Part shown: positions 6,054 through 36,754 of the stretch, piece by piece
Layout of the letters: every line of letters starts with the position of its first letter
Numbering within the stretch: position 1 is the stretch's first letter
From: Pelosinus fermentans JBW45
Lineage (GTDB): Bacteria; Bacillota; Negativicutes; DSM-13327
DNA: 64,000 nucleotides
Direction of reading: 5' to 3'
Assembly (NCBI RefSeq): GCF_000271665.2
Contig: NZ_CP010978.1
Span: 4,122,501 to 4,186,500 of the forward strand
Made by a program: the position numbers and the translations under genes
Notes under the pieces: model-generated
Databases searched by the model: none
The model's input: only the letters and a program-made list of their open reading frames with translations
Told to the model about the DNA's origin: nothing

Positions 6054-6060
6054 TTGTTTA

Positions 6061-6093: not shown

Positions 6094-6106
6094 TTTATAC
6101 ATTACG

Positions 6107-6313
6107 TTATTGAGTACGCACCTCCCGCTTTATTACAATATCCACCGTACAATTATTAAACATAAAACAACAACTCCTTTCATTACTCATAGTAACCCAG
6201 ATTCCATGTAAAAAGCAACTTTCCATCGAATTATAATACGTTCCAGTAATAATTATATCATCTATTTTGGTAAGGTTGTAGATCGACTCGGTAAGGGTGT
6301 CTATATTTTTCAT
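6107..6313 (-). CDS. Doubtful small open frame
   Basis: 68 residues, no recognised family. It follows the glycosylase gene by 23 bases on the same strand, which suggests an operon, but no convincing ribosome site precedes the ATG. It may be real or chance. Confidence 0.25.
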   Translation of the reverse strand: MKNIDTLTESIYNLTKIDDIIITGTYYNSMESCFLHGIWVTMSNERSCCFMFNNCTVDIVIKREVRTQ

Positions 6314-6336
6314 TTATAAGGTGATTTCTTTGATAA

Positions 6337-18704: not shown

Positions 18705-18785
18705 AACGGCAACCTGGCAATCATAGACCTCCGTCCTTAGACCCATAGCTTTGCGTCCCCATCTTTCGACAGGTTTGCCAAATAT
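18705..18785 (-). ncRNA. Cyclic-di-GMP-I (GEMM) riboswitch
   Basis: Read on the minus strand, the conserved GEMM-I pieces appear in order: GGCAAACC, CGAAAG, GGGACGCAAAGC, the GG-TCTAAGG linker, GGAGGT, ATGATTGCCAGGTTGCC. The tetraloop (GAAA) and its partner, the invariant GACGCAAAGC strand, and the closing GGCAA / TTGCC arm are all intact. The RNA senses c-di-GMP. It precedes a terminator-like hairpin and a small membrane protein gene. No other member was seen in the window. Confidence 0.88.
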
Positions 18786-18983
18786 TTACTTACTTTCACC
18801 ATAATAATACTAAAAACTACATAAGTCAAGCTTTTTCGGGGACTTATACCCCACAATTCGAGATATAAGTCCTATTACTCATCTAGAAAAAGACCATCCA
18901 TCCCTCAACAAACAAGTCAAATCCTCTTAATCTGGTCCCTTTCGTTCCTATCCTGCAATACCAGCTTAGCATAGCACACGCAT

Positions 18984-20763: not shown

Positions 20764-21855
20764 CTACCGCCGTTGCAGCTCTGCTTCCCCAGAAGCTAAG
20801 ATAAATGATCCTAACCCTTTTGGCTCATTGCTGACGATTGGCTCACTTATATAATAGGTAAACGTCCCATCGCGCTTGTCTTTTCCCCCTAGTCCTGCCA
20901 CATAGCAAACCTTATTTAAATTGATCAGCCCTTCCTTGGTCTCTAAAATAAATTCATCCACCAATCCCTGGTAAGCTTGTTCAGCATTTTCCTTCAAACT
21001 TGCTGGCAGGTATCCTTTTCTTACGCCTTTCAATAATGCATACACAATCATAGATGATCCTGAGGATTCTAAATAGTTGCCTTTTCCCTCTCCCCCATCT
21101 AAAACTTGATACCATACATGGCTTTTCTGGTCTTGTACCTGTAACAAGGCATGTATACAATCATTAAATATGACCACTAGCTTTTCCCTATTTTTATTGT
21201 CTTCTGGAAAAACTTCTAATGTATCAGCCAAAGCCATCACATACCATCCCATAGCCCGTACCCAAAAATGTGGTGATAAACCCGTTTTCTTATCTGCCCA
21301 GAATTGTTCTTTCGCTTCATCCCAAGCGTGATATAAAAGACCTGTTTTTTCATCCTTTAGATTTTTTTCTGTTATTATGAACTGATTTGCAACATCATCA
21401 AATTCTGCTGGATTGCCAAATTTCTTTATATATGCAGCATAAAAGGTTGCCCCCATATACAATCCATCCAGCCATATTTGATGGGGGTAGATTTGTTTAT
21501 GCCAAAAAACACCTTCACTAGTACGGGGATGAGTTTCTATTTGTTTTCTTAGTGACTGTAGTGCGAGCTTATACTTTTCATTACCAGTTGCTTTATACAA
21601 GGTTAGTAAGATTTTTCCATTATTTAAATGATCTATATTGTATTCCTTTAATCTGTATCCAGTGATCGTTCCATCTTCTTGTATAAAGTGATCCATAGTT
21701 TCTATGATGAAATCAAGATACTTGCTATCTCCTGTTTGCTGCCAAACCTTTGCGATACCATCTAAAGTTAAACCATATTCATATCCCCAGTGATCCGTCA
21801 AATTTATCTTTCTTGCGATTACTGAATCTGCCATCCATTGTGCATATTTTTTCAT
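20764..21855 (-). CDS. Unsaturated rhamnogalacturonyl/galacturonyl hydrolase, GH105
   Basis: 363 residues, the usual length for GH105 (YteR/YesR). No signal peptide, so cytoplasmic. It hydrolyses the unsaturated uronic acid from the non-reducing end of pectin fragments made by lyases. Recognisable parts: SVIARKINLTDHWGYEYG near the start, the IWLDGLYMGATFYA segment (catalytic Asp), the SPHFWVRAMGWYVMAL block and LESSGSSMIVYAL. AGGTGG precedes the ATG. It follows the LUD gene by 46 bases and both are behind promoter box A, placing it in the pectin regulon. Confidence 0.93.
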   Translation of the reverse strand: MKKYAQWMADSVIARKINLTDHWGYEYGLTLDGIAKVWQQTGDSKYLDFIIETMDHFIQEDGTITGYRLKEYNIDHLNNGKILLTLYKATGNEKYKLALQSLRKQIETHPRTSEGVFWHKQIYPHQIWLDGLYMGATFYAAYIKKFGNPAEFDDVANQFIITEKNLKDEKTGLLYHAWDEAKEQFWADKKTGLSPHFWVRAMGWYVMALADTLEVFPEDNKNREKLVVIFNDCIHALLQVQDQKSHVWYQVLDGGEGKGNYLESSGSSMIVYALLKGVRKGYLPASLKENAEQAYQGLVDEFILETKEGLINLNKVCYVAGLGGKDKRDGTFTYYISEPIVSNEPKGLGSFILASGEAELQRR

Positions 21856-21901: not shown

Positions 21902-22549
21902 TTAATATCCAATTTCCTCGGCTATAATTACGATTTTAATTCTGCCTTCAAACTTGATCCCATTATGAATAATTGTTGTAAAATTACATATTCTTTTTTT
22001 ACAATCACAGTCCACACAAAATCCAGTCTCTGTACAGGGTGTTTCATGTTTTATTCTTTTAGAGTTCATCGGTGCTATTTCCCGTATTCTCTGAAATGCA
22101 TCCTCTAAGCAATCTACTATTTTATTAACCCCTGCTACTATGATGACGTTCTTAGGACCAAAAATCATTGGAGCAACACGATTGCCAGTACAATCTGTGT
22201 TCACTAACTCACCTTTTTTAGTAATCGCATTAGTGCCTGTCAACAAAAAATCTGCTGTAAGAGACTTTCTATGAATATCCACTATGTCAGGATCAAAAGG
22301 AAGATCCTGATATCTGTCAAAAAATTTATAATTGCCATCTCTCAGAATCTCAACCAATCCCATCTCGCTTAAGGTTGTTGATCCACCAATGGCAACACTT
22401 GCACCTTCTTCCAGCATTCCAAGGACCTTTTTTTTGGCTTCCTCTAAATTTTCCACGTAGGTCGCCTGAAAGTGCTTTCTGTTTAATATCGCGACTATAT
22501 CTTTTGCTTTACAAAGGTTTTTCCAAGCTTTCATTTTATCGATGATCAT
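21902..22549 (-). CDS. LUD-domain (LutC/YkgG-like) protein
   Basis: 215 residues from the ATG at 22549; the AGAGGGAGGG before it is close, so a start at 22534 is also possible. The body matches the LUD superfamily: GASVAIGGSTTLSEMG, LLTGTNAIT, NTDCTGNRVAPMIFGPKNVIIVAG. Stand-alone LUD proteins are poorly understood; LutC is involved in lactate oxidation. A cysteine cluster (CTETGFCVDCDCKKRIC) near residue 180 could bind metal. It heads a two-gene operon with GH105 behind promoter box A, which links it to pectin use, although its reaction is unknown. Confidence 0.82.
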   Translation of the reverse strand: MIIDKMKAWKNLCKAKDIVAILNRKHFQATYVENLEEAKKKVLGMLEEGASVAIGGSTTLSEMGLVEILRDGNYKFFDRYQDLPFDPDIVDIHRKSLTADFLLTGTNAITKKGELVNTDCTGNRVAPMIFGPKNVIIVAGVNKIVDCLEDAFQRIREIAPMNSKRIKHETPCTETGFCVDCDCKKRICNFTTIIHNGIKFEGRIKIVIIAEEIGY

Positions 22550-22623
22550 CACCCTCCCTCTGCCAATCACATGTAACAAACGCTTATTTTCTTACGGTTT
22601 CTTTACCACAGAAGCTTTACTCC

Positions 22624-22687
22624 ATTATAAAATAAAATCATTTTTTCAAGAATTTGATATATTAAGATAATTATTTGCTATTTTAAT
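22624..22687 (-). promoter_or_regulatory. Promoter A with pectin-regulon direct-repeat box
   Basis: Minus strand. Half-site ATTAAAA (22681-22687) and half-site CTTAATA start 21 bases apart, followed by TTCTTG as -35, a 17-base spacer and TATAAT (22624-22629). Same layout as promoters B, C and D. It drives the LUD-GH105 operon. Confidence 0.7.
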
Positions 22688-22744
22688 AAGTTTTTGACAC
22701 TACTTCGCAGCAAATGAAAGGAAGCTAAGGAATAAAGCAATATA

Positions 22745-22792
22745 AAAAGTACACAAGGACTGCCGTGTTACTTTGCAATCATTGTGCACTTT
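22745..22792 (-). terminator. Intrinsic terminator of the ABC importer operon
   Basis: Arms aaagtacacaa and ttgtgcacttt pair with one wobble around a long loop; the minus strand ends in TTTTT. It closes the five-gene operon that starts at 28482. Confidence 0.65.
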
Positions 22793-22834
22793 CTTAATTT
22801 AAGAAGAGATATTTGGATATCGAGAGATCTCAAA

Positions 22835-23953
22835 CTACTTACAAAGCATTATATTTTGCTGGGTACTCTTATCAAAAAGATGAGCCTTCTCCATATCCAT
22901 GCTTAATGTAACCTTCTCTCCGCATTGCATCTTTATACTGCAATCGCTCCGCAAGGTGAGCATTGTATCAGCAACACCAGTGCAGTGCAAATATACTTCT
23001 GCCCCTGTATTTTCCTGCACTTCAATGCAAGTCTTATAGATATTTTCCTTCTGGGACTCAGTGGAGACACCCTCATTACGGATATCTTCCGGGCGTATTC
23101 CTATAATCACTTCTTTGCCAACATAGTTCAAATTCGATACTTTTTTTGCCTGGTCATTAGTGAGTTTCCATTCAACACCACAAGCAGTAAATATCACTTT
23201 ATTTCCTTGGGCTTGCAAATTGCCGTTAATAAAATTCATTGCTGGAGAACCAATAAATCCAGCGACAAACATATTCACAGGAGCATTATATATCTCATCA
23301 GGTGTTGCAATTTGCTGAATAATCCCATCTTTCATAACCACAAGCCGATCTCCCATTGTCATTGCTTCTGTTTGATCATGAGTTACATAAACGGTTGTAG
23401 TCTGCAGCCTCTTTTGTAATTTACTAATTTCCGTACGCATTTGCACACGAAGTTTAGCATCTAGATTAGATAGGGGCTCATCCATCAAAAATACTTGTGG
23501 TTCTCGAACAATTGCCCTTCCTAAAGCCACACGCTGCCGCTGACCGCCAGATAAATCCTTCGGTTTTCTCTTCAATAAAGATTCTAAATTTAAAATATTT
23601 GCAGCTTCATGTACGCGTTTATCAATTTCTGGTTTTGCAAATTTACGCATTTTCAAACCAAATGCCATATTTTCATATACATCCATATGAGGATATAAGG
23701 CGTAGTTTTGAAAAACCATGGCGATATCACGATCTTTAGGCGGCATATTATTCAGCCTTTTATCTCCAATATACATATCCCCATCAGAAATTTCTTCCAA
23801 CCCCGCAATCATACGCAGTGTTGTTGATTTACCGCAGCCAGAAGGTCCAACTAAGACGATGAATTCTTTATCCTTGATTTCCAAATTTACATCTTGAACA
23901 ACTGTTGTATCACCATATCTTTTATATATATTTTGCAGTTTCACACCCGCCAT
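22835..23953 (-). CDS. Sugar ABC transporter ATPase (MsmX/UgpC-like)
   Basis: 372 residues from the ATG at 23953, the size of MsmX or MalK; the open frame upstream (to 24037) is not family sequence. Walker A GPSGCGKST, Q-loop, signature LSGGQRQRVALGRA, Walker B VFLMDEPLSNLDAKLR and a C-terminal TOBE-type regulatory domain are present. It energises uptake of oligosaccharides by the two permeases coded upstream. Last gene of the importer operon, after oligogalacturonate lyase. ATPases of this kind often serve several importers, so it may not be restricted to pectin sugars. Confidence 0.93.
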   Translation of the reverse strand: MAGVKLQNIYKRYGDTTVVQDVNLEIKDKEFIVLVGPSGCGKSTTLRMIAGLEEISDGDMYIGDKRLNNMPPKDRDIAMVFQNYALYPHMDVYENMAFGLKMRKFAKPEIDKRVHEAANILNLESLLKRKPKDLSGGQRQRVALGRAIVREPQVFLMDEPLSNLDAKLRVQMRTEISKLQKRLQTTTVYVTHDQTEAMTMGDRLVVMKDGIIQQIATPDEIYNAPVNMFVAGFIGSPAMNFINGNLQAQGNKVIFTACGVEWKLTNDQAKKVSNLNYVGKEVIIGIRPEDIRNEGVSTESQKENIYKTCIEVQENTGAEVYLHCTGVADTMLTLRSDCSIKMQCGEKVTLSMDMEKAHLFDKSTQQNIMLCK

Positions 23954-24071
23954 TATTTCCACTCTACCTTTCCTGTAGTATTTATCCGATGAGCAAGTCA
24001 CTTTAAGACTCTTCTTTTCTCTTCTCTTGGTACTCATCAGTTAGTTCATCAATTAGCCTGCCATCTTGCTA

Positions 24072-25238
24072 TTACAGCCATTTTCCATTCTCCTGTTCAA
24101 CCATATACAGATTACACTTTCCACTTCGGTCAGAGGTAAACAAGATCTGTTGGTTATCCCAGCTAAAGGTCGGGTGACAATGTGACTGCTGCATATACCA
24201 TGATGTATGATGGGTACACAATGTCTTCAGTTGCGCCTTATCATCCTGCAGACTGATTAATACCAAATCATCCATTTGATCACCAATAAGCAGCATATTG
24301 TCATTAGTGGCATGATAGTGATTGCAGTAGTACGGCATAGGAATGCTCTTTATCACCTCACCATTTCTATCTGCCATTCCAATATACGGTATTTGTCCAA
24401 ACTCAGGATAATTAATAATTGCTTGTTTTTTATCTGACGTAATTGTCCCATCATGCCCCTTTCTTCGATTATCAAAGAAAATTTTTCCGTCATTTGTCCA
24501 AAATTCATGACCAACGCAATCATCCTCTGCCTGACGAAAACATGGAATAACAGTACGATTTATAATATCAAGCAGCCAAATTCTTTGATGTACAAGATTC
24601 CACGGACCTTCATGACAGAACATGGCTATTGAGCTATCATGAGGTGCAAATTGAAAGTGACCTAACCAATGAGTGTCTTCATATATATTTGCAGCTTTTG
24701 TACTATCCAAATCCACCAGAGTAATCCACCCGCGCTTTACAGCGTACATTTGCTCTTTAAAACCTTTGTAATTACCGCCTCTGTATAATCCAGGGTCTTC
24801 ATTCCGGGCAAGTCCAATAACTTTCTTGTTTGGGGAAATAGACGGATGTCCTAATTGAATACCAGTCTCCTCTTCGAAAATGTCAGTGGATTTCAGCGTT
24901 GTTGTATCTAACTTTTTAATTTTATTACCTGTTACGTAAATAACAAATTCACTATCCGGAGTCTTCGTATGACCACTTGGCATAATTCCTGCTTTTTCAT
25001 CTGTCAGCTGACAGATAGCTCCTGTTTCCAAGTCCATTCTAAAAAGATTATATACTTCTGGAATTCGCGAGGCACGATCCGACATAAAATAAATTTCACG
25101 CTTCTCCATAGTGAAGGAATTATCTGTAAAGTAAAAATGATAATTATTACTTTCTCCAGCTGTAAGCTGCCAAACGACTTTACCGGTTTTCTCATCAACT
25201 GTCATTTTCTTTTCTGCTGGATATTCTTTTCCGATCAT
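24072..25238 (-). CDS. ogl: Oligogalacturonate lyase (PL22)
   Basis: 388 residues, matching family length, with no signal peptide, so cytoplasmic. It splits unsaturated digalacturonate into 5-keto-4-deoxyuronate. A TolB-like beta-propeller is suggested by repeated strands such as KREIYFMSDRAS and QQILFTSDRSGKCNLY; the motifs DCVGHEFWTNDG, YYCNHYHA and SHCHPTFSWD supply the conserved histidines for metal binding and catalysis. AAGGAGGCG precedes the ATG. Encoded inside the importer operon, it processes the imported oligomers. Kdu enzymes for the next steps are not in this window. Confidence 0.93.
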   Translation of the reverse strand: MIGKEYPAEKKMTVDEKTGKVVWQLTAGESNNYHFYFTDNSFTMEKREIYFMSDRASRIPEVYNLFRMDLETGAICQLTDEKAGIMPSGHTKTPDSEFVIYVTGNKIKKLDTTTLKSTDIFEEETGIQLGHPSISPNKKVIGLARNEDPGLYRGGNYKGFKEQMYAVKRGWITLVDLDSTKAANIYEDTHWLGHFQFAPHDSSIAMFCHEGPWNLVHQRIWLLDIINRTVIPCFRQAEDDCVGHEFWTNDGKIFFDNRRKGHDGTITSDKKQAIINYPEFGQIPYIGMADRNGEVIKSIPMPYYCNHYHATNDNMLLIGDQMDDLVLISLQDDKAQLKTLCTHHTSWYMQQSHCHPTFSWDNQQILFTSDRSGKCNLYMVEQENGKWL

Positions 25239-25291
25239 TAAGGTTACGCCTCCTTAAAGCTCTTTACTACAACCAGCAACAACTATATCCC

Positions 25292-26623
25292 CTATTGTTT
25301 ACCAGCTACATATGCATCATATTTTTGTTTTGATTTTTCAAAAGCAGCTGCCCATTCATTCAGAAAATCTTCTGCTGATTTCTTTCCAGTCATTACAGCC
25401 TGAATACCAGGGTCGACTGTTTGATCCAGGATTGAACGATAGTCAGGTAATTGCATTGGTGGTTGATAGATTCTAAAGTTAGGATCAGAAAGCATTTGTA
25501 ACGCAAGCTGCATATGAGGTAATTCTTTTGCCCAAGGTTCTTTCAAAGATTCTGTATTGGTAGGAATCTGTCCAATGCTTTGGTTCCAATAGCTCTGGCT
25601 TTCTTGTGAACACAAGAAACTTACAAATTTCCATGCTTCTTCTGGATGCTTCGTTGTTTTGAAAATGCCGTAGCCATTGGTATTTCCGCCTTCTTGCATG
25701 AACAGTCCATTTGCCGTTTTAGGTAAACCTAATGGAGCATATTGTTCTGGCTTCATAGATTTCTTATGTTCTGAGTAGGATCCAATATTATGCTGCACCA
25801 TGGCAACAGCACCCGTATCAAAAGCAGCAATCATTTCTTTATAACCATTCGTCACATCGCTTTTCGGTGTAAAGGTCTTATAAAGCGCTAAGTATTTTTT
25901 AAGAAACTCAACATGTTTCGGATCATTAATGAGGCACTTACCATTTGCATCAAAATATTCAGTAAAACCAGAGTAAGCAAACATCATTCGCTGCAATTGA
26001 AAAGATGCACCATCACCGCCACGAATGGTAAAACCATAACGATTTTTGTCTTTATCTGTCATTTTTTCTACAGCAGTAAAAAATTGATCCCAATTTTCAG
26101 GAACTTGCACGCCAGCTTCTTTAAACCAGTCAGGTCTATACCATAAAATCTCCATATTCATCGTATTAGGCAATTGGTATAGTTTTTTATCCAATACCAT
26201 ATCACGATTTGACTGGATAATAGACGGGGAAATCTCGTCTTTCTCACTCCATTTATCAAACAACGGGTCCATTTCCAATAATACTTTTCGTGCCGTAAAA
26301 TCAGCGATCCAACTCGTTTGCACACCAGATACATCCGGAAGATCATTGGCAGCAATGGCAGTATCAATTTTTTGTTTTGCTGACTTCTTAGGAAGACCAA
26401 CATACTCAACATGGATATTGGGATTCTGTGCTTCAAATTTCTTAATTAATACTTCATAGTAGGGAGTACGATCTGGCCCTGCATTTTCATCCCAGAATAC
26501 AATATTGACCTTTTCTCCTGCAGGCTGCCCAGTAGCCGCCTGCTTCTGCCCACATCCGAATAGCAGCACCAGCGAACTCAATAAACAGGCGACCATTAAC
26601 ACCTTTGTTCCTTTTTTGAACAT
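25292..26623 (-). CDS. Sugar ABC transporter substrate-binding lipoprotein
   Basis: 443 residues from the ATG at 26623, about 12 bases after AGAAGGAG. A signal peptide ends in the lipobox LLFGCGQK near residue 25, so the protein is anchored as a lipoprotein on the inner membrane facing the periplasm. The rest is a family-1 extracellular solute-binding fold (VNIVFWDENAGPDRTPYYEVLIKKFE start, WKFVSFLCSQESQSYW near the end). It delivers oligosaccharides to the two permeases. Substrate is inferred from the neighbours: pectin fragments. Confidence 0.92.
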   Translation of the reverse strand: MFKKGTKVLMVACLLSSLVLLFGCGQKQAATGQPAGEKVNIVFWDENAGPDRTPYYEVLIKKFEAQNPNIHVEYVGLPKKSAKQKIDTAIAANDLPDVSGVQTSWIADFTARKVLLEMDPLFDKWSEKDEISPSIIQSNRDMVLDKKLYQLPNTMNMEILWYRPDWFKEAGVQVPENWDQFFTAVEKMTDKDKNRYGFTIRGGDGASFQLQRMMFAYSGFTEYFDANGKCLINDPKHVEFLKKYLALYKTFTPKSDVTNGYKEMIAAFDTGAVAMVQHNIGSYSEHKKSMKPEQYAPLGLPKTANGLFMQEGGNTNGYGIFKTTKHPEEAWKFVSFLCSQESQSYWNQSIGQIPTNTESLKEPWAKELPHMQLALQMLSDPNFRIYQPPMQLPDYRSILDQTVDPGIQAVMTGKKSAEDFLNEWAAAFEKSKQKYDAYVAGKQ

Positions 26624-26689
26624 AGCGAGTATCACTCCTTCTCGTTTTGTAGCTTATTGTCAACTGACTAAATTCTTTCACATCGAAAA

Positions 26690-27526
26690 TTATCCTTTTA
26701 CAGCACCTCCCAAACCATTAACTAGATACCTCTGTGCATAAGCAAACATGATAATTGCAGGGACTAATGCAATTACACTGCCAGCTGCAAGAGCACCATA
26801 ATTAATGTTGAATTCTCCCATCATGTAGCTTAGCCCAACCGAAAGTGTAAAATTTGCCGCCTTGTTCGTAAGCATAAAGGCGAATAAGAATTCATTCCAG
26901 GCATAGATAAAAGTAAATACGCCCGTCGCTACGATTCCTGGTAACAATAAGGGAAAGATAACATGGCGAATGGCCTGCAGACGGCTGCAGCCATCTACCA
27001 TTGCCGCCTCTTCAAGCTGCACTGGCACATTAGAGATAAACCCATTCATAAGTATAGAATTAAACGGTATTTGGAAAGTAGTATAAGCAATAATGAGGGA
27101 TAGTGGATTACTGATTAACCCTAAATTCTTGAAGATAATGAACAAGGGAATAATGAGCATCGCCCCAGGAACAAACTGAGTACACAACAACAGAAGCAAA
27201 AAGGCTTTTTTCCCTTTAAAACGATATCGACTTAAAGCATATCCTACCAAAGTAGCAAAAAAAACTACAGATATAACAGTACAACCAGCTAGAAACAAGC
27301 TATTCTTAAAAAACAATGCAAAACCAATATTATTCCAGGCATTTATGAAATTATCAAAGGTAATCTGGCTTGGAATATACTCCAATGGTGTTTTGACAAT
27401 ATCCCCCTCATTCTTGAGAGCTGTATTCACGGTCCAGTAAAAAGGAAACATGATGAATGTCATGGTAATCAATAATGGAAAATACAATGTAAAAAATCGT
27501 TCCTTTTGGAGGCTGATTTTCATCAT
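26690..27526 (-). CDS. Sugar ABC transporter permease (MalG-like)
   Basis: 278 residues with six membrane helices and the EAA loop (LEEAAMVDGCSRLQAIRHVIFPLLLPG) that contacts the ATPase. The start overlaps the upstream permease by 4 bases, the usual coupled arrangement. Pairs with it to form the membrane channel of the importer. Confidence 0.92.
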   Translation of the reverse strand: MMKISLQKERFFTLYFPLLITMTFIMFPFYWTVNTALKNEGDIVKTPLEYIPSQITFDNFINAWNNIGFALFFKNSLFLAGCTVISVVFFATLVGYALSRYRFKGKKAFLLLLLCTQFVPGAMLIIPLFIIFKNLGLISNPLSLIIAYTTFQIPFNSILMNGFISNVPVQLEEAAMVDGCSRLQAIRHVIFPLLLPGIVATGVFTFIYAWNEFLFAFMLTNKAANFTLSVGLSYMMGEFNINYGALAAGSVIALVPAIIMFAYAQRYLVNGLGGAVKG

Positions 27527-28482
27527 ACTTCGGCACCTCTTTCCATACGACTAATTTTCAAATAGGTAACTACAAATACGAGCAAAATAGCAAAGGATAT
27601 GACCGTTATCGCTGAACCATACCCAAAATTATTTTCGCGAATTGCCAATTCAGCAACATACATAGTCAACGTAGTTGTATGATGTGCTGGTCCCCCTCCT
27701 GTTAAGTTGAAAATTAAATCAACGTTATTATACTCCCAGACGCAGCGCAATAATGTTGTCAATATAAGCGTGTTCTTCAGTTGGGGTAAGGTCACATATA
27801 AAAATGTTTTTATGCGTCCTGCCCCGTCAACCTTGGCTGCCTCATAAAGTTCTTCGGGAATACTCTGCAAAGCAGATAGCAATGTGATGGCAAAAAAAGG
27901 AATGCCTCTCCAAAGTTCTGCAACGACAACTGCCGGGAAAACGGTAGCAAGATCTGCTACCCATGCCTGTCTCTGTTCAATAAATCCAACTTTTAATAAC
28001 AAATCATTAACAACACCCATGTGTTCATTGTACATTAATGACCACATAACAGAAGTCAGTACACCGGAAATAGCCCACGGTGTAAAAGCAGCTGCTCTGA
28101 AAAAAGTACGAAATTTAAACTTTTGATTTAACAGCAGTGCAATGCTCATTCCAAAGAATACCTGTAATGAAACTTGTGAAACTACCCATTTGAATGAAAT
28201 CCACAAGCTGGCATAAAACTGAGGATCTTGGGTCAAAATGCGTACAAAATTATCCAAACCTGCAAAGCCGTTATAGAACGGTGTATTGGCATTATAATTC
28301 TGCAAACTGTAATAAAAGACATTACCCAGTGGATAAAATAAGAATCCTGCAATAAACACCAACGCAGGCGAGATGAAAAGATAGGGAAGCCACTTTTCAT
28401 AATCAAACGTATTCTCTTGTTGCGAAGACTGCCTCCTTTTTACCTGATTTTTTAGTGCCTTAACTTTTTCTTGTAATTGCAT
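27523..28482 (-). CDS. Sugar ABC transporter permease (MalF/UgpA-like)
   Basis: 319 residues, six membrane helices after a charged cytoplasmic N-terminus, with the EAA loop (LYEAAKVDGAGRIKTFLYVTLPQL). First gene of the operon permease-permease-binding protein-oligogalacturonate lyase-ATPase, all behind promoter B. GAAGGTGAGC lies before the ATG. Confidence 0.92.
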   Translation of the reverse strand: MQLQEKVKALKNQVKRRQSSQQENTFDYEKWLPYLFISPALVFIAGFLFYPLGNVFYYSLQNYNANTPFYNGFAGLDNFVRILTQDPQFYASLWISFKWVVSQVSLQVFFGMSIALLLNQKFKFRTFFRAAAFTPWAISGVLTSVMWSLMYNEHMGVVNDLLLKVGFIEQRQAWVADLATVFPAVVVAELWRGIPFFAITLLSALQSIPEELYEAAKVDGAGRIKTFLYVTLPQLKNTLILTTLLRCVWEYNNVDLIFNLTGGGPAHHTTTLTMYVAELAIRENNFGYGSAITVISFAILLVFVVTYLKISRMERGAEV

Positions 28483-28523
28483 AGTTATTTGCTCACCTTC
28501 ATTCTTTTAGCTTCATTTCCTTC

Positions 28524-28587
28524 ATTATAGAATAAAAACAATTTTCCAAGAATTTGATATATTAAGATAACTATTAACTATTTTAAT
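28524..28587 (-). promoter_or_regulatory. Promoter B with pectin-regulon direct-repeat box
   Basis: Minus strand. ATTAAAA (28581-28587) and CTTAATA start 21 bases apart; TTCTTG, 17-base spacer and TATAAT (28524-28529) follow. Nearly identical to promoter A. It lies 42 bases upstream of the importer operon. Confidence 0.7.
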
Positions 28588-28607
28588 ATATTTATTGCAG
28601 CTTATAA

Positions 28608-28640
28608 TAAGAGTGCAAACCAGTGTGGCTTGCACTCTTA
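28608..28640 (-). terminator. Intrinsic terminator after the cytoplasmic GH28 gene
   Basis: An 11-bp perfect stem, taagagtgcaa with ttgcactctta, extendable by gcttat/ataagc on the outside. It separates the GH28 gene from promoter B. Confidence 0.7.
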
Positions 28641-28652
28641 TCATAAGCTATT

Positions 28653-30014
28653 TTATACGTCATCATAATATTTCCCATTAATACTGACATTTTTAAATAC
28701 TAATCCTTCAACATTTTTCAAGACAAAAGGGGTTTCTACATTGTGCAATATGCAATTCGTGAATTGTACATTGCTAATGGGGGTGCGATCATATGCACTC
28801 ATCAAAATTCCGGTTTTTCCGCCGTAACTCTCTAAGTTTTCAACAAAGATATTGCGCACAATAGGTGTATATTCCCCAGCATCTCCTTCTTCATAATCCA
28901 TATCGACTATGAAAATTTCTTCGCCAATACTTTTTACAGTCGTATTTTTAAAGTAAATATTTTCGATGATGCCGCCACGTACAGAATTAGTTTTAAATCG
29001 TAATGCACGATCTAAATTGGGACTATCCATCACATTATGATCAGCAAAAACGTTGCGAACACTTCCCGATATTTCACTGCCGATGGTTATGCCACCGTGT
29101 CCGTCCTTCATATAATTATTCTGGATCACAATGTTTTCACAGGGAATGTTGATTCGCCTGCCATCACCATTTCTGCCTGATTTAATGGCAATACAATCAT
29201 CTCCATTATTAAAATAGCAATTTTTAATCAAGATATTCTTACAAGAGTCTGGATTAAAACCGTCAGTATTAGGACCATGTCCCACGATTTTCACCTTATC
29301 GATCGTAATGTTTTCACAAAGCACGGGAGAAATCTGCCACATGGGAGAGTCCTTTACTGTAATACCTTCAATTAAGATATTTTTACTATTATAAAACTGT
29401 ATAAAGCTTGGACGCAAATAGTGTCCACTGCCAAATTTTCTTTCTTCTACAGGTACATTCTGCTCTGCCATAGCAAACAGCACATCACGATCCTCAGCCT
29501 GATGCGCCTGCCCTTCTTGCCAACCATACTGGGTTAACCCCTTCCATGGCCACCAATGCTCATTATCACCGTTACCATCAAGTATCCCCTCCCCAGTAAT
29601 GGCAATATTTACGGCACCATAGGAATAGATTAAAGGAGAATAATTGTACAGTTCCACTCCCTCAAACCGATTCAGCACCATGGGCAAATATTTTTCTAGA
29701 TCTTGGCTGAATTTAACGGTAGCCTCTTTAGACACATACAAATTGACATTGCTCTTAAAATGGATAGGCCCCGTAAGGTAAATCCCCGCAGGAACCACCA
29801 CCCGCCCTCCACCAGCCGTATTAGCTGCCATCATTACTCTGCGAAAAGCATCTGTACAATCCATTATTCCGTCCCCGACTGCACCAAAATCTGTTACTAC
29901 AAAATCACGACGAGGAAAAGTGGGAGGAATAATTTGACCTAGGATGCGCTGAATTTGCCCCCACCCTTGCTCTGTTTCTGCTTCATGACCCGGAATTTGC
30001 TGTCCATAATTCAT
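28653..30014 (-). CDS. Cytoplasmic polygalacturonase, GH28
   Basis: 453 residues from the ATG at 30014, with TTGGAGGTAGC upstream. The parallel beta-helix fold shows the GH28 catalytic set in order: NTDGFNP, NNGDDCIAIKSG, GHGGITIGSE and ALRFKT. The start VTDFGAVGDGIMDCTDAF is typical. There is no signal peptide, so it acts on galacturonides already imported, probably as an exo-hydrolase. It is a single gene between two terminators, and its own promoter region lacks the shared box (a TATAAA lies near 30043). Confidence 0.92.
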   Translation of the reverse strand: MNYGQQIPGHEAETEQGWGQIQRILGQIIPPTFPRRDFVVTDFGAVGDGIMDCTDAFRRVMMAANTAGGGRVVVPAGIYLTGPIHFKSNVNLYVSKEATVKFSQDLEKYLPMVLNRFEGVELYNYSPLIYSYGAVNIAITGEGILDGNGDNEHWWPWKGLTQYGWQEGQAHQAEDRDVLFAMAEQNVPVEERKFGSGHYLRPSFIQFYNSKNILIEGITVKDSPMWQISPVLCENITIDKVKIVGHGPNTDGFNPDSCKNILIKNCYFNNGDDCIAIKSGRNGDGRRINIPCENIVIQNNYMKDGHGGITIGSEISGSVRNVFADHNVMDSPNLDRALRFKTNSVRGGIIENIYFKNTTVKSIGEEIFIVDMDYEEGDAGEYTPIVRNIFVENLESYGGKTGILMSAYDRTPISNVQFTNCILHNVETPFVLKNVEGLVFKNVSINGKYYDDV

Positions 30015-30105
30015 AATAGCTACCTCCAAGATTGGATTATTTTTTATACCTTAAACTGATGCATTGTTATTTGTAATTCTTATTTACTCTTCCACTACAC
30101 TAATG

Positions 30106-30151
30106 AAAAACCGTCCTGAACCCTTGAACTTTCAATGGTCCAGGACGGTTT
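30106..30151 (-). terminator. Intrinsic terminator after the secreted Fn3-GH28 gene
   Basis: Stem aaaccgtcctg with caggacggttt, followed by a T-run on the minus strand. Confidence 0.8.
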
Positions 30152-30180
30152 GTTATTATTACTGACTCATCTTTAACTTA

Positions 30181-32907
30181 CTACTTTTTCGTAGTTACAC
30201 GTATACTTGGACCAGTTCCAGTCCATTTTCCTGCAGTATCACCAGCTTCCACTTTAAAGGTGTAAGTGGTATTGGGTGCGAGCCCTATCACAGTGAACGT
30301 GTTGCCCTCAACGGTATACGCCGTATTTATTAGAGTAAACTCTGTATCGTTTTTTATCGGTTTTCCATCTTGAAATATTCTATAACCAACAATTTGTTTA
30401 TCATCTACAGCCATGGGCCAATTAAGGGTCACACTTATATTCGTTACGTTACTACTGGTTATTTTACTATTTGCCAGCCACTTTGGTGCCCCAGTGTCAT
30501 ACCCCGGTTTCGTAGTCACGTCTAACCTTAAGCCATATACAATTTCATTCCCAGAAGCGTCTACTGCCTTCACATTGAAAAGATACTTTGTTCCAGGCAC
30601 GAGCCCTGTAACATTATAAGCACTTGTATTGCCAGCAACAACAGCTACCAGCTTGTCTTTTTCATAGATGGCATACTGTTTTATACCATACAAATCTGTC
30701 GCAGGTTTCCATGCGATATTCACCCATGTCGTACCTACTTTAACGGATTTTACAATTTCTTTTCCTTCAGGCATTACAGGGGGCACATTGTCCTTCACAC
30801 CTTTTGTTACTACTTTCAAGCTTGGTCCGCTGACTGTCCAATTTCCTGTTGCATCGGCCGCCTCTACCTTAAAATCATAGGATAGAGCTGGTGCCAGGCC
30901 TGTAACCTTATGGATTGATGCATTCCCTGGAACTGTAGCTACGATGGAATTTTCATTCCATATCCGATATTGAGCCACCGCCACATTATCTTTTGCTCCA
31001 GTCCACTTCAGCGTTACATTGTTTTCCTCAATAGCATCAGCCAATAATGTACTCTTATCTGACCAGACTGGGCCAATCGACGCGTCAGCTGTTACTGGCG
31101 TTGCTGTAGTATCCTTATCAAATGAAAGTCCTATCGAATTGGTAATAACCCATGGATTGGACGTCTTATTGTCAAATGTGACTTTGCTAAAAGAGCTATT
31201 CTTCATATAGTCAATTTTAGTAGGTTTTACATTATAGAATTTCACATTTTCAAAATTAATATTTTCATGAAACCCGTTACTTACTCCTGCTACTTCAATG
31301 GCAGGAGCACCAGTGGTGTCTACCGTGCAATTTTGAATAGTCATATCCTTGAACCGCCCTGGTGCGGAAGCAGGTTCAAATTCGACTACTGCATTTGGAT
31401 CAGAATAAGCTGACGTAAAGATGAATGCTTGCAGTTTAATATCTTTCAGCGCATTATCCCTGAACAAGATGTTTCTGGCACCACCGCCAGTAGCGTTATT
31501 GGTTTTGCTGCGAAGACCTGTATCAGTATGATTAATAACATTATCTTCTGCCAATATATTCTCTGTCCATGCAGCTGTATGACTTCCTGTTACAATAGCT
31601 CCATGTCCTTGTCTAAAATAATTGTTAAAAATCCAAGCATTTTTAGTCGATTCTTCCTTTTGACCAGCAGCCCCTTGCCCCGCTGCAAAATTCATGCAGT
31701 CATCACCTGTATCAAAGAAAGTATTAAATACAGTCAAACCATTTCCATGAGCAAATTCAATTCCATCGCCATTATTAGCATCATAAGTCTTCATAATTAC
31801 ACCATTTACTGTTACATTATTGCAATTTAAGTTGATCAAAGTGTGGTTGGCAGGATTGACTGCGGTAAAACCACCATAGTACACATTCGTAACACCTCTT
31901 AGCGTAATCATACTTGGTCTTCTAGGATAAACGGCTTTAAAGTTCATCTTATTCATTGCCATTGCTTTTTCAATACTGGTTTTTGCCAGTATACCGATAT
32001 TAAGAGCATGATTAGGATCAAGAACGTTATCTTTGCTGCTATTTTTAGCTGGAAGATATACGGGTAATGAAGAGTCTTCTTTGTCAAAGCCGTCTTGTAT
32101 CCAGCCATTGCCATCAATTGTGCCTTCGCCCACAATTCGAATATTCTTGATACTGCCATAGTCATAGGTATGGGCATTGATCAGTGAGTAAAAACGCTCG
32201 TCTGTAGAATAATCATATAACAAATAGTGATAAGGATACTCATCAGCGTTTTCTGTAGCCAAGAGAGTTGAATCTTTACCAATTTCAAACGTCATATCAC
32301 CTTTGAGCCAAATAGCTCCTGTCTTAAATATTCCAGCAGGTATCAACACTTTTCCGCCTGGAGTACAGGCGTCAATTGCTGCTTGAATGGCCTTTGTATT
32401 TGATGTAACGCCATCCCCAACTGCTCCATAGTCAACGATATTAAATATTTTAGGAATCGCTGTTGTGGATTGCTTCACGCGAATACTGTCGGGTGATTCT
32501 TTTCCATCTTTATCAACTGCCCTGACTGTAAAAGTATAGACTGTATTCGCCTTAAGATTAGTAGCAGTGTAATTATGCATTGTTATTTTTTGTGCAGCGC
32601 TATTACTAGCATCTCTATAGAAGTTATCAATGTTTGTTTTTGCCAGGGAATGATTGCTTTCATTCGCATTGCCTACCAACTTACCGTTCATATAAACATT
32701 GTAGTTTACAATGTTCGAGTAATTCTCGGGCTTTTCCCATACTAACACAATGCTTTTCTCATCATATGCTAGGGCAGGAACTCTCAAGTTTTGCGGTGGC
32801 AGTACAGTGGCTGCAGATGCTTTTGCCATATCCCCTCCCAAACCGTACACTTGACAGATCACTAGCAAAACTATCAATACCAACGATAACCGATTTGCTC
32901 TCTTCAT
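30181..32907 (-). CDS. Secreted multidomain exo-polygalacturonase, Fn3-GH28-Fn3(3)
   Basis: 908 residues from the ATG at 32907 with TAGGAGGTAG upstream (the longer frame has none). A signal peptide (about 1-30, ending near AKASA) is followed by one fibronectin-III domain (about 35-130), a GH28 beta-helix (about 140-620; start IVDYGAVGDGVTSNTKAIQ, catalytic NGDGIEF, TGDDCMNF, GHGAIVTGS, LRSKTN) and three more Fn3 repeats to the end (each closing with a YxFKVEA-type strand). An N-terminal Fn3 joined to GH28 is known from PehX-type exo-galacturonosidases; the three C-terminal Fn3 repeats are extra. It probably attacks pectin outside the cell. Driven by promoter D. Confidence 0.9.
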   Translation of the reverse strand: MKRANRLSLVLIVLLVICQVYGLGGDMAKASAATVLPPQNLRVPALAYDEKSIVLVWEKPENYSNIVNYNVYMNGKLVGNANESNHSLAKTNIDNFYRDASNSAAQKITMHNYTATNLKANTVYTFTVRAVDKDGKESPDSIRVKQSTTAIPKIFNIVDYGAVGDGVTSNTKAIQAAIDACTPGGKVLIPAGIFKTGAIWLKGDMTFEIGKDSTLLATENADEYPYHYLLYDYSTDERFYSLINAHTYDYGSIKNIRIVGEGTIDGNGWIQDGFDKEDSSLPVYLPAKNSSKDNVLDPNHALNIGILAKTSIEKAMAMNKMNFKAVYPRRPSMITLRGVTNVYYGGFTAVNPANHTLINLNCNNVTVNGVIMKTYDANNGDGIEFAHGNGLTVFNTFFDTGDDCMNFAAGQGAAGQKEESTKNAWIFNNYFRQGHGAIVTGSHTAAWTENILAEDNVINHTDTGLRSKTNNATGGGARNILFRDNALKDIKLQAFIFTSAYSDPNAVVEFEPASAPGRFKDMTIQNCTVDTTGAPAIEVAGVSNGFHENINFENVKFYNVKPTKIDYMKNSSFSKVTFDNKTSNPWVITNSIGLSFDKDTTATPVTADASIGPVWSDKSTLLADAIEENNVTLKWTGAKDNVAVAQYRIWNENSIVATVPGNASIHKVTGLAPALSYDFKVEAADATGNWTVSGPSLKVVTKGVKDNVPPVMPEGKEIVKSVKVGTTWVNIAWKPATDLYGIKQYAIYEKDKLVAVVAGNTSAYNVTGLVPGTKYLFNVKAVDASGNEIVYGLRLDVTTKPGYDTGAPKWLANSKITSSNVTNISVTLNWPMAVDDKQIVGYRIFQDGKPIKNDTEFTLINTAYTVEGNTFTVIGLAPNTTYTFKVEAGDTAGKWTGTGPSIRVTTKK

Positions 32908-33078
32908 GTAGTAACTACCTCCTAATATGCTTCTCCTCACTTGACTACTTGGCATTTTCAAAACGGTCCAACGCTTCTAATAGCTAATGATAACTATCAT
33001 TCACTAAGTTTTTATTGGTCATCGATTTTGTTTCATAACAAATCCTCTCCTTTTAAATATTCAGGCTTGACTTATTGC

Positions 33079-33142
33079 AGTATAAACAACAATCAATTTT
33101 CTGTAAATTTAATTTCTTCAGATAATTATTTAAAATCTTAAG
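33079..33142 (-). promoter_or_regulatory. Promoter D with pectin-regulon direct-repeat box
   Basis: Minus strand. CTTAAGA (33136-33142) and CTGAAGA start 21 bases apart, followed by TTTACA, a 17-base spacer and TATACT (33079-33084). Drives the Fn3-GH28 gene through a leader of about 165 bases. Confidence 0.68.
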
Positions 33143-33169
33143 CAATATTTCTTCTACAGCTACTTTTGT

Positions 33170-33208
33170 CATATAAAAAAAGGAATCACCAGTCATGGCT
33201 GGTGATTC
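33170..33208 (-). terminator. Orphan minus-strand terminator between divergent promoters
   Basis: Arms gaatcaccag (33183-33192) and ctggtgattc (33199-33208); the minus strand continues with seven T. No minus-strand gene ends here: it stands upstream of promoter D, so it may block antisense transcription or be a relic. Apart from this and the promoters, the 32908-33611 stretch contains no supported gene. Confidence 0.6.
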
Positions 33209-33328
33209 TGTTATTCTAGGCAGCCTCTGGCACCTCACTACCAATTTACCAGATGGAAAAATAGCTTTACAAGATGCGCCTGCTTCCTAACTCTATGTCA
33301 TTTATATTAAAAATGGGACGCTATTAAA

Positions 33329-33392
33329 CTTAAGAAAGTGAAGAATAATCTTAATATATTAAATTGTCAAAATCTTCTTATTTGTTTAAAGT
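33329..33392 (+). promoter_or_regulatory. Promoter C with pectin-regulon direct-repeat box
   Basis: Plus strand. CTTAAGA (33329-33335) and CTTAATA start 21 bases apart, followed by TTGTCA, a 17-base spacer and TAAAGT (33387-33392). Directed toward the SLH porin gene with a leader of about 215 bases. Confidence 0.68.
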
Positions 33393-33537
33393 AAAAGTAG
33401 ACATTTTTTGAAATAAAATACAAAAATTTACTTATTCAGGGTCTTTGACCATCGGGACTGTCGGCATTGGAGGTGCATACTGGATTTTGCCAGACCGTTC
33501 TAATGATGGTAATAGATATAGGGATAGGATAGAACCG

Positions 33538-33566
33538 TTGAGGGAACATGTGCAACTCAATATACT
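33538..33566 (+). promoter_or_regulatory. Second, box-free porin promoter
   Basis: TTGAGG, 17-base spacer, TATACT. It would start transcription about 40 bases before the porin ATG and could supply basal expression. Confidence 0.5.
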
Positions 33567-33611
33567 CTATTTGATTCCCCTACTATATAAAAAAACTAGG
33601 AGGAGAAAAAC

Positions 33612-35066
33612 ATGAAAAAAAGTTTAACTCTGGCACTTGCTGTAATGTTTGGCTGTAGTGTTGCAGGTACAGCATTTGCGGCAACCGGAACGGAAAATCC
33701 GTTTACAACAGTCCCGTCCAATCATTGGGCATATCCTGCCGTGACACAACTAGTAAAAGCAGGCCTTATTGATGGCTATAACGATGGCGATTTCCGCGGT
33801 GATCGCGCTATCACTCGTTATGAAATGGCTTCATTGGTTGCCAAAGCAATGACCCATGTCGACAAAGCAGATGCTGCTGATAAAGCTGCGATTGACAAAC
33901 TTTCTGCAGAATATGCTAACGAACTCAACAATTTGGGGGTTCGTGTAAAAACTTTAGAAAAGAAAGTTAACGCTCTTGGCAAAATTACAATTGGTGGTGA
34001 ATTACGCATCCGCTACGATTATGCTGGTGATGGCGTTTCAGGTTTTAGCGATGCTAATTCTGACAAACGGAAAAATGGCCAAGAGCGGTTCCGCTTGAAT
34101 ATGAGCGCTCCTTTGGATGATAACTGGAAAGTATCTGCCCGCTATGAATCGCAAGCCGCTAAATATGGTGGCAGCGGCAGTGACAACCTGAATGTCCTGG
34201 CCCGTGCTTATGTAGAAGGCGACGTTGCCGGAATGCATGTATTGGCAGGCCGCGGCAATTTTAAAACCTTCAATGCCTATACCGGCTGGGATAAAGATAA
34301 CTGGGACGGCGCAGGCGTTACTATCGGCAATAAATTAACTTTAGACATGTATGCTATGAAACATGGCGGTACTAATAGTACTACTACTTATACTACTACT
34401 GCTGTTGTTGATTCAAGTGGCAATCCTGTTCTTGATAAAAATGGCAATCCTACTTATACTACTAAATCAACTTCTGCCTTCAAGCAGGTTAATACCTGGT
34501 ACAAATTGTCTCAGTTGAAATACTCTTTCTCTCCCGACTTCACTATGGCTGCTCAATGGTTAAAGAATCCTGTCGAAGATAGGGGCATAACAGGTGGTAG
34601 CTATGACACAATAGGTATCGGCTTTAAATATAGCGGAATTAAAAACATAACATTAAGCGCTGAATACGCTAAAAACAGAGCTACTAAAATTATGGGAACT
34701 GACGCTGCTGGTACTCTTAGCAGTAAGGTGGCTACTACAAACGATAAGCCTGTAGGCTATGAAATTAAACTAGATTACGGCAAAGCGGATAAAAGCAAAG
34801 TTGGCACCTGGGGTTCTTGGGTCGGCTACAGATATGCCGAAGATGGCTTTGACCGCAGTGACGTGACCACTGGTTTCCGTCATGATAATGCTAAAGCAGC
34901 TCGTATGAACAATATTAAAGGTGTGGAAGTTGGATTAGATTATACCTTCATTAAAAATACTAAATTTCAAGCTTTCTACATTGCCGGTAAAGCTGTAAAT
35001 GGGAATGATATTGCCGGTACGGACAATAAACATATGACATATGCTCAAATGGAATTATTCTTCTAA
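33612..35066 (+). CDS. SLH-domain outer-membrane porin (OmpM-like)
   Basis: 484 residues; TAGGAGGAG precedes the ATG. A signal peptide ends at AFA near residue 23. One SLH domain follows (about 33-85: VPSNHWAYPAVTQLVKAGLIDGY, read in parts, then the ITRYEMA motif), then a helical coiled-coil linker (about 88-120) and a long beta-barrel with alternating strands, ending in an aromatic residue (MELFF) as outer-membrane barrels do. In Negativicutes such proteins tether the outer membrane to the wall and act as diffusion channels. The pectin box in front of it suggests it lets pectin oligomers through; that is inference. Confidence 0.9.
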   Translation: MKKSLTLALAVMFGCSVAGTAFAATGTENPFTTVPSNHWAYPAVTQLVKAGLIDGYNDGDFRGDRAITRYEMASLVAKAMTHVDKADAADKAAIDKLSAEYANELNNLGVRVKTLEKKVNALGKITIGGELRIRYDYAGDGVSGFSDANSDKRKNGQERFRLNMSAPLDDNWKVSARYESQAAKYGGSGSDNLNVLARAYVEGDVAGMHVLAGRGNFKTFNAYTGWDKDNWDGAGVTIGNKLTLDMYAMKHGGTNSTTTYTTTAVVDSSGNPVLDKNGNPTYTTKSTSAFKQVNTWYKLSQLKYSFSPDFTMAAQWLKNPVEDRGITGGSYDTIGIGFKYSGIKNITLSAEYAKNRATKIMGTDAAGTLSSKVATTNDKPVGYEIKLDYGKADKSKVGTWGSWVGYRYAEDGFDRSDVTTGFRHDNAKAARMNNIKGVEVGLDYTFIKNTKFQAFYIAGKAVNGNDIAGTDNKHMTYAQMELFF

Positions 35067-35140: not shown

Positions 35141-36754
35141 TTATAACTTATTTTTAAATTCAATAGGTGGAACGCCCGTATATTTTTTAAAACAGACACT
35201 AAAATACTCCGGGCTGCTATATCCCACTACATCTGCTACTTCATAGGTTTTCATGTTATTGCTTCTCAAAAGTTCCATCGCTTTTTTCATTCTTAGCTGT
35301 AATAAAAAATCTGAAAAGGTAATGTTTCTTTCCTGCTTAAACAGTGTGCTCAAATAAACCGGGTTCATGTGCACATGCTTAGCTACTTCCTGTAATGATA
35401 ATCCCTGCTTTTCGTAATGTTCTTCAATATACTTTGCGGCTTCTCCTATTACCCCACTCCTGTGACTCTCACGCTGCGTTGTCATAAATTGAGCAAGATC
35501 ACATGCCACAAACTTGATCAAGTTCGTAATTTCCTGAATGGTTTGCATTTCATTAATTCGACTGTAGTAAATAGATACATTTCCCTGCTGCGTTTTTTCC
35601 CATTCTTGTGCCCACTCAGCCGCACCTCGAAATAGAGATATAATTAACTGTACTGCAAGGAGGCGAACATAATACAGTGATATATGACTTTGCTGCATCA
35701 TCTTACTTTCCAAATCATCGACAAAATGCAAAGCATCTTGCACCAAACCAAGCTTTACTTTATCTACAAGTTCAATTTCTTGCCCACTGATCTTTACACT
35801 CTTATCATAACTTGACGATCTTCCACCAACATCCAACATGGAGAAAACTCTATTTTTACCAATAAAGTGGCGATAACTAAATACAGACCGTGCCTCCCCA
35901 TAAGATGATTCAATATTAGAGATTCCATGATACGCTCCCCCAAGAGCAATCGTCACTGTTGTTTCTAAATATTCTTCTACCGTATTTTTAATCTGCTCTG
36001 CTAAAGCCCTTGCATTTTCTTCTGCTTTTTCGCAGGTTTCATTGCTAGAATAAATTAGAATCAGTTCATCCTTTTCTAATTCAACGACGCCTCCTTTTCC
36101 CTCAGCAAATAGTAACTCTTCACAAATATTGAAAATACAGTACCTTAAGGCTTCTCTTTTTTCAATAGGCTGCTCTACTGTCCCCACTAGTTCCTTATAA
36201 TACTCATCAATCTTGACTAAAAAAACAATAAAAGTTTGACCTGTTAATTCAATACCTAATGACCTTGCTTCCTGTATTAACTCTTCTTTATTATTTTCTT
36301 TACATTCCGTCAAATTTTTTAAAAATGCTTTTCTAAAAAAAGGCTTTGCTTCACTTATTTTTTGTTGTGCCCTATTCTCGACATCCCATTCTCCAGCTGC
36401 TTTTCTTACTTTTTCTAGTAGTATTTCCTTATCTACCGGCTTAAGCAAATAATCAAAAGCTCTTATTTGTATCGCTTGTTGTGCATATATAAAGTCATTA
36501 TATCCTGTAAGAAGAATTAACTTAATCATCGGATATCGTTCCTTAACAATACGTGCCATATCCAGACCATCCATAAATGGCATCCTAATATCAGATATTA
36601 CAATATGAGGATGAAATTCTTCAATTAGTTTGAGCCCCTGTTCCCCATCAGCCGCCTCTCCTCCAAGCTGAAACCCATACTCCTCCCAAGGTATTGTCTT
36701 AGCCAGCCCCTTGCGAATAATTCGGTCGTCATCAATAATTAAAATTCTATGCAT
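35141..36754 (-). CDS. Response regulator with AraC-type DNA-binding domain (YesN-like)
   Basis: 537 residues. REC domain at 1-120 with the acidic pocket IIDDD, phospho-acceptor Asp55 in ISDIRMPFMDG, Thr at LLTGYND and Lys at LLKPVDKE. A long middle region follows, then two AraC helix-turn-helix motifs at about 435-535 (LSLQEVAKHVHMNPVYLSTLFKQ and TYEVADVVGYSSPEYFSVCFKK, read in parts). YesN-type regulators control uptake and breakdown of plant polysaccharides. It overlaps the kinase gene by 8 bases. AraC proteins bind direct repeats about two helical turns apart, which is what promoters A-D show, so it is the natural candidate activator. Confidence 0.93.
   Translation of the reverse strand: MHRILIIDDDRIIRKGLAKTIPWEEYGFQLGGEAADGEQGLKLIEEFHPHIVISDIRMPFMDGLDMARIVKERYPMIKLILLTGYNDFIYAQQAIQIRAFDYLLKPVDKEILLEKVRKAAGEWDVENRAQQKISEAKPFFRKAFLKNLTECKENNKEELIQEARSLGIELTGQTFIVFLVKIDEYYKELVGTVEQPIEKREALRYCIFNICEELLFAEGKGGVVELEKDELILIYSSNETCEKAEENARALAEQIKNTVEEYLETTVTIALGGAYHGISNIESSYGEARSVFSYRHFIGKNRVFSMLDVGGRSSSYDKSVKISGQEIELVDKVKLGLVQDALHFVDDLESKMMQQSHISLYYVRLLAVQLIISLFRGAAEWAQEWEKTQQGNVSIYYSRINEMQTIQEITNLIKFVACDLAQFMTTQRESHRSGVIGEAAKYIEEHYEKQGLSLQEVAKHVHMNPVYLSTLFKQERNITFSDFLLQLRMKKAMELLRSNNMKTYEVADVVGYSSPEYFSVCFKKYTGVPPIEFKNKL

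Follow-up and report, generated by a model that had tools for sequence, protein, structure and literature searches.

In Caldicellulosiruptor bescii, three of the five two-component regulators with AraC-type domains have large-spacer tandem repeats upstream of candidate promoters, and these proteins have been proposed as activators that locally control nearby transporter genes (PMC8579813). The XydS/R system of Clostridium cellulolyticum includes a regulator with a receiver (REC) and an AraC-type domain, encoded beside polysaccharide genes, which binds upstream regions in vitro and is required for expression (PMC3572039). For the YesN protein of Streptococcus pneumoniae, carbohydrate metabolism is among the listed functions, and the authors report that they identified no clear repeat motif (PMC11034029). 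At the mannitol promoter PmtlE of Pseudomonas fluorescens, two similar 15-bp blocks (-72 to -58 and -50 to -36) lie upstream of the -35 element and serve activation by MtlR, an AraC/XylS-type protein (PMC4514859). The present analysis concerns 64,000 nucleotides of Pelosinus fermentans JBW45 (contig NZ_CP010978.1, positions 4,122,501 to 4,186,500), referred to below as the window, in which four promoters of a pectin locus share a box made of a direct repeat. We consider it likely that this box serves as operator, of the AraC-type class II kind, for a local pectin regulon, with a phosphorylated YesN-like protein as putative activator; the operator and its register with the promoter are well supported. 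A preliminary description had proposed a pectin regulon box in AraC-type layout, and this proposal is supported by the genome-wide specificity of the box, by its footprints before further pectin genes in relatives and by the fixed promoter register.

Architecture and specificity of the box

The four promoters align without gaps across 64 bp, in which half-site 1 occupies positions 1-15, half-site 2 positions 22-36, the -35 element positions 36-41 and the -10 element positions 59-64. Three boxes lie on the minus strand: (i) that of the LUD-GH105 operon at 22624-22687 (half-sites 22673-22687 and 22652-22666, -35 TTCTTG at 22647-22652, -10 TATAAT at 22624-22629), (ii) that of the importer-lyase operon at 28524-28587 (half-sites 28573-28587 and 28552-28566, -35 TTCTTG at 28547-28552, -10 TATAAT at 28524-28529), and (iii) that of the fn3-GH28 gene at 33079-33142 (half-sites 33128-33142 and 33107-33121, -35 TTTACA at 33102-33107, -10 TATACT at 33079-33084). 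The fourth, on the plus strand at 33329-33392, belongs to the SLH porin gene (half-sites 33329-33343 and 33350-33364, -35 TTGTCA at 33364-33369, -10 TAAAGT at 33387-33392). All four promoters conform exactly to the coordinates and strands that had been proposed for them, to the 21-bp spacing of the half-sites, to the 17-bp spacer between -35 and -10 and to a -35 that begins at position 36, 14 bases past the first base of half-site 2. The proposed direct repeat at 21 bp also stands, but its 7-bp unit does not: 15 positions agree at offset 21, giving a half-site of about 15 bp (near CTTAATATATYAAAT), the second copy of which touches a weak -35. In a set of 23 sites, which adds 19 sites from relatives (see below) to the four of the window, positions 1-15 and 22-36 share a mean of 10.6 matches out of 15, compared to a mean of 5.6 and a maximum of 6.7 in shuffles (0 of 2000 reach the observed value); other repeat offsets, from 8 to 44, give 3.7-7.1 matches.

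Half-sites about two helical turns apart, the downstream one ending on the first base of the -35 of a sigma-70-type promoter, correspond to the class II layout of AraC-type proteins. A weak -35 is what is expected of activator-dependent promoters. Here, the -35 agrees with TTGACA at two of six positions in the two promoters with TTCTTG and at five of six in the two others, with a mean of 3.5 of six across the 23 sites. Since two of the four promoters have such a poor -35, this element is partly set by position rather than by sequence.

Over 73 bp, the boxes at 22624 and 28524 share 88% identity and are therefore not mutually independent. Matrices built from these two recover the other two within the window, and the reverse is also true. 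When leave-one-out matrices of the 35-bp box were applied to every position on both strands of the window, each held-out box ranked directly after its three training boxes, with scores of 27-39. The top non-box match of each run (19.5-23.3, at 28561 on the plus strand) overlaps a true box on the opposite strand, and the best unrelated match scored 13.6.

The specificity of the box was assessed across the whole single-contig genome of P. fermentans JBW45 (G000; 5,380,816 bases) with a model, R1, trained on the 19 sites of relatives and on none from the window; 150 of 6817 first-look candidates were scored. Among the 15 matches at E <= 10, the top four are the boxes of the importer-lyase operon (E 1.3e-11), the LUD-GH105 operon (E 8.6e-10), the fn3-GH28 gene (E 1.6e-8) and the porin gene (E 2.3e-7), and the fifth (E 0.0058) covers positions 11-45 only. 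Scored at full length with the 23-site matrix, which includes the four boxes, these four reach at least 58.6 bits and none of the eleven weaker places exceeds 3.3; with the 19-site matrix of relatives, the four score at least 51.3. The scan suggested in the preliminary description does not yield random positions: all four boxes recovered precede genes of pectin depolymerisation or uptake. No further target was found in this genome by the R1 scan, and nothing rose above background elsewhere in the window, including before the second GH28 gene or yesM. A whole-genome search at E <= 0.001 added no box outside the pectin loci in G000 or in three relatives (G001, G005 and G006). Since R1 finds only four boxes genome-wide, the regulon is confined to one locus at the sensitivity used. 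The box had also been expected before kdu genes; of these, the KduI/IolB family was searched, and its two genes in P. fermentans JBW45, at 1.68 and 1.29 Mb, do not carry it.

Sites and targets in related genomes

Orthologues of the YesN-like protein are encoded by three congeneric genomes (73-79% identity) and by Propionispira raffinosivorans (65%). In the corresponding loci of these four relatives, the four-site matrix of the window (positions 1-38) finds 19 further sites with scores of 24.0-51.5; the best seven matches per locus were listed, and all 19 sites lie within YesMN-pectin loci by way of finding them. The next values among the matches listed are 17.6 and 16.2, both overlapping accepted sites, then 11.5. 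Although the search used positions 1-38 only, the -10 element is retained in the 19 sites, with T59 and T64 in all of them and A60 in 18. Agreement with TATAAT across the 23 sites averages 5.2 of six at position 59 and does not exceed 3.2 at the 17 other starts tested, five of which run off the end. Adding the sites of four further genomes discussed below (one in G020, two in G114, one in G200 and two in G338) gives 29 sites, 27 of which lie 31-364 nt upstream of the start of an open reading frame (ORF) on the same strand. The two exceptions are the G020 box and one G338 box located inside an over-long permease ORF call.

The targets in relatives include further pectin genes. Among the matches listed, G006 has seven sites, which precede a PF09492 pectic lyase, fn3-GH28, the porin, a PF05426 lyase, a chemoreceptor, an importer permease and LUD-GH105. 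G005 also has seven, a total confirmed by a later scan, with targets in the same order except that the importer site precedes the solute-binding protein; its pectic lyase was confirmed by Pfam, whereas its PF05426 lyase and chemoreceptor are presumed targets from size, order and near-identical boxes. The four sites of G001 precede an Abhydrolase_7 gene, a ShlB-type secretion gene followed by a 1007-codon ORF with a TPS secretion domain, GH28b and LUD-GH105, and the single site of Propionispira precedes a porin.

Matches to the importer operon itself vary in the stretches compared (L025-L028): in G005, the solute-binding protein is retained with its box, and the permeases, lyase and ATPase gave no match, whereas G006 lacks a match to the oligogalacturonate lyase only. 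At the ShlB promoter of G001 (L029, about 6604-6688, minus strand), there is an apparent third half-site another 21 bp upstream, which makes three in-phase direct repeats.

Candidate reader of the box and competing explanations

The box is probably read by the YesN-like response regulator encoded at 35141-36754 on the minus strand (Response_reg, GGDEF-like GGDEF_2 and HTH_18/HTH_AraC domains), as suggested by gene neighbourhood, by domain content (REC and AraC-type helix-turn-helix, HTH), by co-occurrence and by the lack of boxes where YesN is only 42-47% identical. The adjoining gene (36747-38576, minus strand) encodes a YesM-like histidine kinase (His_kinase PF06580 and HATPase_c PF02518) with a dCache_1 match just under the Pfam cut-off (E 8.5e-11) and a PHFLYN motif, which we take to be the phospho-acceptor site. 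The pair has the composition of YesMN systems, a regulator with REC and a C-terminal AraC-type HTH next to a His_kinase/HATPase sensor with an extracellular domain.

Boxes (E <= 0.001 and stricter filters, 13 candidates scored per genome) and YesN proteins (three candidates scored per genome) were surveyed in 380 genomes of the class Negativicutes, to which Propionispira also belongs; G201 of this survey is taken to be the record of the Propionispira locus L006, since its YesN match lies at the same coordinates. Nine genomes have the box. In seven genomes, YesN identity is at least 52% across most of the protein, and all seven have the box, compared to two of the other 373; the hypergeometric figure for this overlap, which ignores kinship, is 1.7e-13. 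In each of the seven, YesN and boxes share a contig and lie within about 25 kb. No box was found by the class survey in a clade of eight genomes where YesN is 42-47% identical (in one of them in two pieces), nor by local scans in seven of these eight (all but G324), nor around the GH105 orthologues of three of them. In this clade (L104, L106-L111), yesMN is adjoined, as in three-component sensing systems, by the gene of a protein related to the solute-binding protein (identity about 50-60%), which may be a co-sensor. The segments NPVYLSTLFKQE and SSPEYFSVCFKKY, which we assume to be the recognition helices of YesN, are closely similar among box carriers (with near variants), somewhat different in the 42-47% clade and more so elsewhere. 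Beside distant YesN proteins (loci L007-L013, L031 and L032), the best score was 8.4, compared to 24.0 for the weakest accepted site. A phylum sample of 398 genomes, including G000 and some class members, added one genome, G669, with a partial match (E 3e-4). No YesN relative was confirmed on viral contigs.

Several observations weigh against YesN as the reader. Of the eight genomes in the genus, four (G002, G003, G004 and G007) have no box, no close YesN and no GH105 match (E <= 1e-60); since GH105 is absent along with the two others, the box co-occurs with the locus as a whole rather than with YesN specifically, and this association is also inflated by shared ancestry. Scans of the window revealed no box in front of yesMN. 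Two genomes have boxes without a close YesN. G114 has two (L099, 10847-10910 and 11092-11155, plus strand), before an importer 70-84% identical to that of the window; none of its YesN proteins is closer than 27% identity at full length. In G020, a single strong box is present (L097, 18441-18504, plus strand), and full-length YesN identity does not exceed 30%. In G200, one of the seven genomes with a close YesN, the box at 6881 of L101 is intact beside a YesN match (5166-6614) that covers residues 1-485 up to an in-frame TGA, with the rest of the HTH in another frame; this YesN may be broken, or there may be an assembly error. Finally, G338 carries a one-component AraC-type gene (AraC_binding and HTH; L102, 11159-12145, minus strand) beside YesMN. 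All YesN candidates were scored in G000, G002, G020, G114 and G338.

The G020 box lies within a hexuronate cluster with TRAP-transporter, KduI, mannitol-dehydrogenase-type and altronate-dehydratase genes. It precedes a 168-codon ORF without any Pfam family, the next ORF of at least 200 codons being 792 nt away. By eye, this small ORF could be taken for a porin remnant, for which Pfam and tblastn gave no support.

These exceptions bear on the explanation that survives best besides YesN, namely that the box is a true AraC-type operator read, alone or together with YesN, by a different AraC/XylS-family protein or by a different response regulator whose gene lies elsewhere. It would account for the boxes retained by G114 and G020 and for the one beside the stop-containing YesN of G200, and candidates exist: contig 4 of G114 encodes a shorter REC-AraC regulator with 50% identity in the aligned part of the HTH, and P. 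fermentans JBW45 has, besides shorter REC-AraC proteins, two further YesN paralogues of full length (25% and 28% identity). However, one of its paralogues (3671379) has a near-identical HTH counterpart in the box-less G002, the close YesN lies near the boxes in seven of seven genomes, and no box was found where YesN falls to 42-47% identity, so that we regard another reader as unlikely. The likeness of the boxes could also reflect plain common descent of duplicated promoters without any shared regulator, as the two boxes with 88% identity might suggest. This is very improbable, because the repeat persists (10.5 of 15 matches at offset 21) in the 11 distinct sites left when the 23 are reduced at 80% identity, the invariant columns fall in the half-sites and the -10, and the targets vary between genomes. 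Lastly, the LysR-type regulator encoded at 19778-20638, beside GH105 and near the LUD-GH105 operon, is a most improbable governor of these promoters, as its query finds nothing above 26% identity in stretches from four box-bearing relatives and a 21-bp direct repeat is unlike the interrupted dyad that is the usual LysR site.

The preferred reading, a class II operator for phosphorylated YesN, can be extended, in a form that we hold to be rather doubtful, as follows: one two-component system and a single operator would run the whole outside-in pectin route in diderm Firmicutes (secreted polygalacturonase and lyase, SLH-anchored outer-membrane porin, importer, cytoplasmic lyases and, in relatives, a chemoreceptor steering cells to pectin), and in at least one genome (G114) the operator would have outlived or outrun its regulator, another AraC-type regulator having taken over.

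The pectin locus and comparison with known systems

The pectin locus spans 20.7-38.6 kb of the window and encodes a hydrolase, a LUD-domain protein, an importer with a lyase, two GH28 proteins, a porin and the YesM/YesN-like pair. All genes downstream of the first three boxes are on the minus strand and were assigned by Pfam. The box at 22624-22687 is followed by the LUD gene (21902-22579, PF02589) and a GH88/GH105-type hydrolase gene (20764-21855, Glyco_hydro_88, PF07470). The importer-lyase operon (22835-28482) encodes two permeases (27523-28482 and 26690-27526), a solute-binding protein (25292-26635), an oligogalacturonate lyase (24072-25238, PF14583) and a MalK-type ATPase (22835-24037). 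Downstream of the third box lie the fn3-GH28 gene (30181-32961) and the second GH28 gene (28653-30029); the latter has no box of its own in scans of the window, its G001 orthologue has one, and it could be transcribed by read-through from the third box. The fourth box precedes, on the plus strand, the gene of the SLH-domain outer-membrane porin (33612-35066, SLH and Porin_5), which gave partial matches only on plasmids, at its SLH end. The predicted leader of the porin mRNA (33393-33611) is about 210 nt long, and about 250 nt in G006 and G005. Its good conservation there, with frame-breaking gaps, indicates that it is probably non-coding, and it may be a regulatory leader; no Rfam family matched it at gathering scores. 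Besides these elements, a c-di-GMP-I riboswitch aptamer (RF01051, 76 bits) is found at 18705-18789 on the minus strand.

In the mechanism that we propose, the YesM-like kinase would phosphorylate YesN once pectin fragments are perceived, either directly or via a binding protein, by the extracellular domain of the kinase. Two activator monomers would then occupy the two half-sites of about 15 bp, set 21 bp or two helical turns apart, each inserting its two HTH motifs into successive major grooves, and the downstream monomer would touch sigma-bound RNA polymerase at the weak -35 (class II activation). Expression of fn3-GH28, of the outer-membrane porin, of the importer with oligogalacturonate lyase and of the LUD-GH105 operon would rise jointly, and in relatives the regulon would also take in the pectic lyase, the chemoreceptor and other genes. 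Binding and activation by YesN are predicted from sequence, and pectin fragments are suggested as inducer solely by the neighbouring genes.

Such a shared switch could let the cell turn on the cutting, uptake and digestion of pectin together. YesN-type response regulators are common and, to our knowledge, their operator sites have seldom been defined. This work provides for one of them a probable operator described to the letter, a model tested genome-wide and a prediction of targets. Through the box, the use of pectin in Negativicutes is also connected with an SLH porin and, in relatives, with a chemoreceptor, so that substrates can be suggested for the two proteins. The box appears undescribed within the literature searched: no description of it was found in work on YesN/AraC operators or on pectin regulons in this group, subscription journals being mostly outside the search.

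The regulator class and the site layout are themselves already known. The XydS/R genes are induced by straw, and the study of them does not resolve the operator but mentions inverted repeats, direct repeats and other common features (PMC3572039). The pneumococcal YesN resembles that of the window in regulator type, by name, and differs in that its authors identified no clear repeat motif (PMC11034029). In C. bescii, the two-component systems concern xylan, arabinose, cellulose, mannose and monosaccharide genes, and their likeness to the pectin box is drawn from the described layout; the regulators of pectin genes named there, PecR, PecR2 and HemR, belong to the AraC family, unlike the two-component YesN of this locus (PMC8579813). 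Assuming a transcription start 7 bases beyond the -10, the half-sites of the pectin box would lie at about -70 to -56 and -49 to -35, which resembles the arrangement of MtlR. MtlR has no two-component receiver domain. It responds to mannitol, and the spacing of its blocks is 22 bp compared to 21 in the pectin box (PMC4514859). It is this match in layout, with the MtlR blocks on the one hand and with the tandem repeats of AraC-type two-component regulators on the other, that leads us to read the box as a putative class II operator of phosphorylated YesN.

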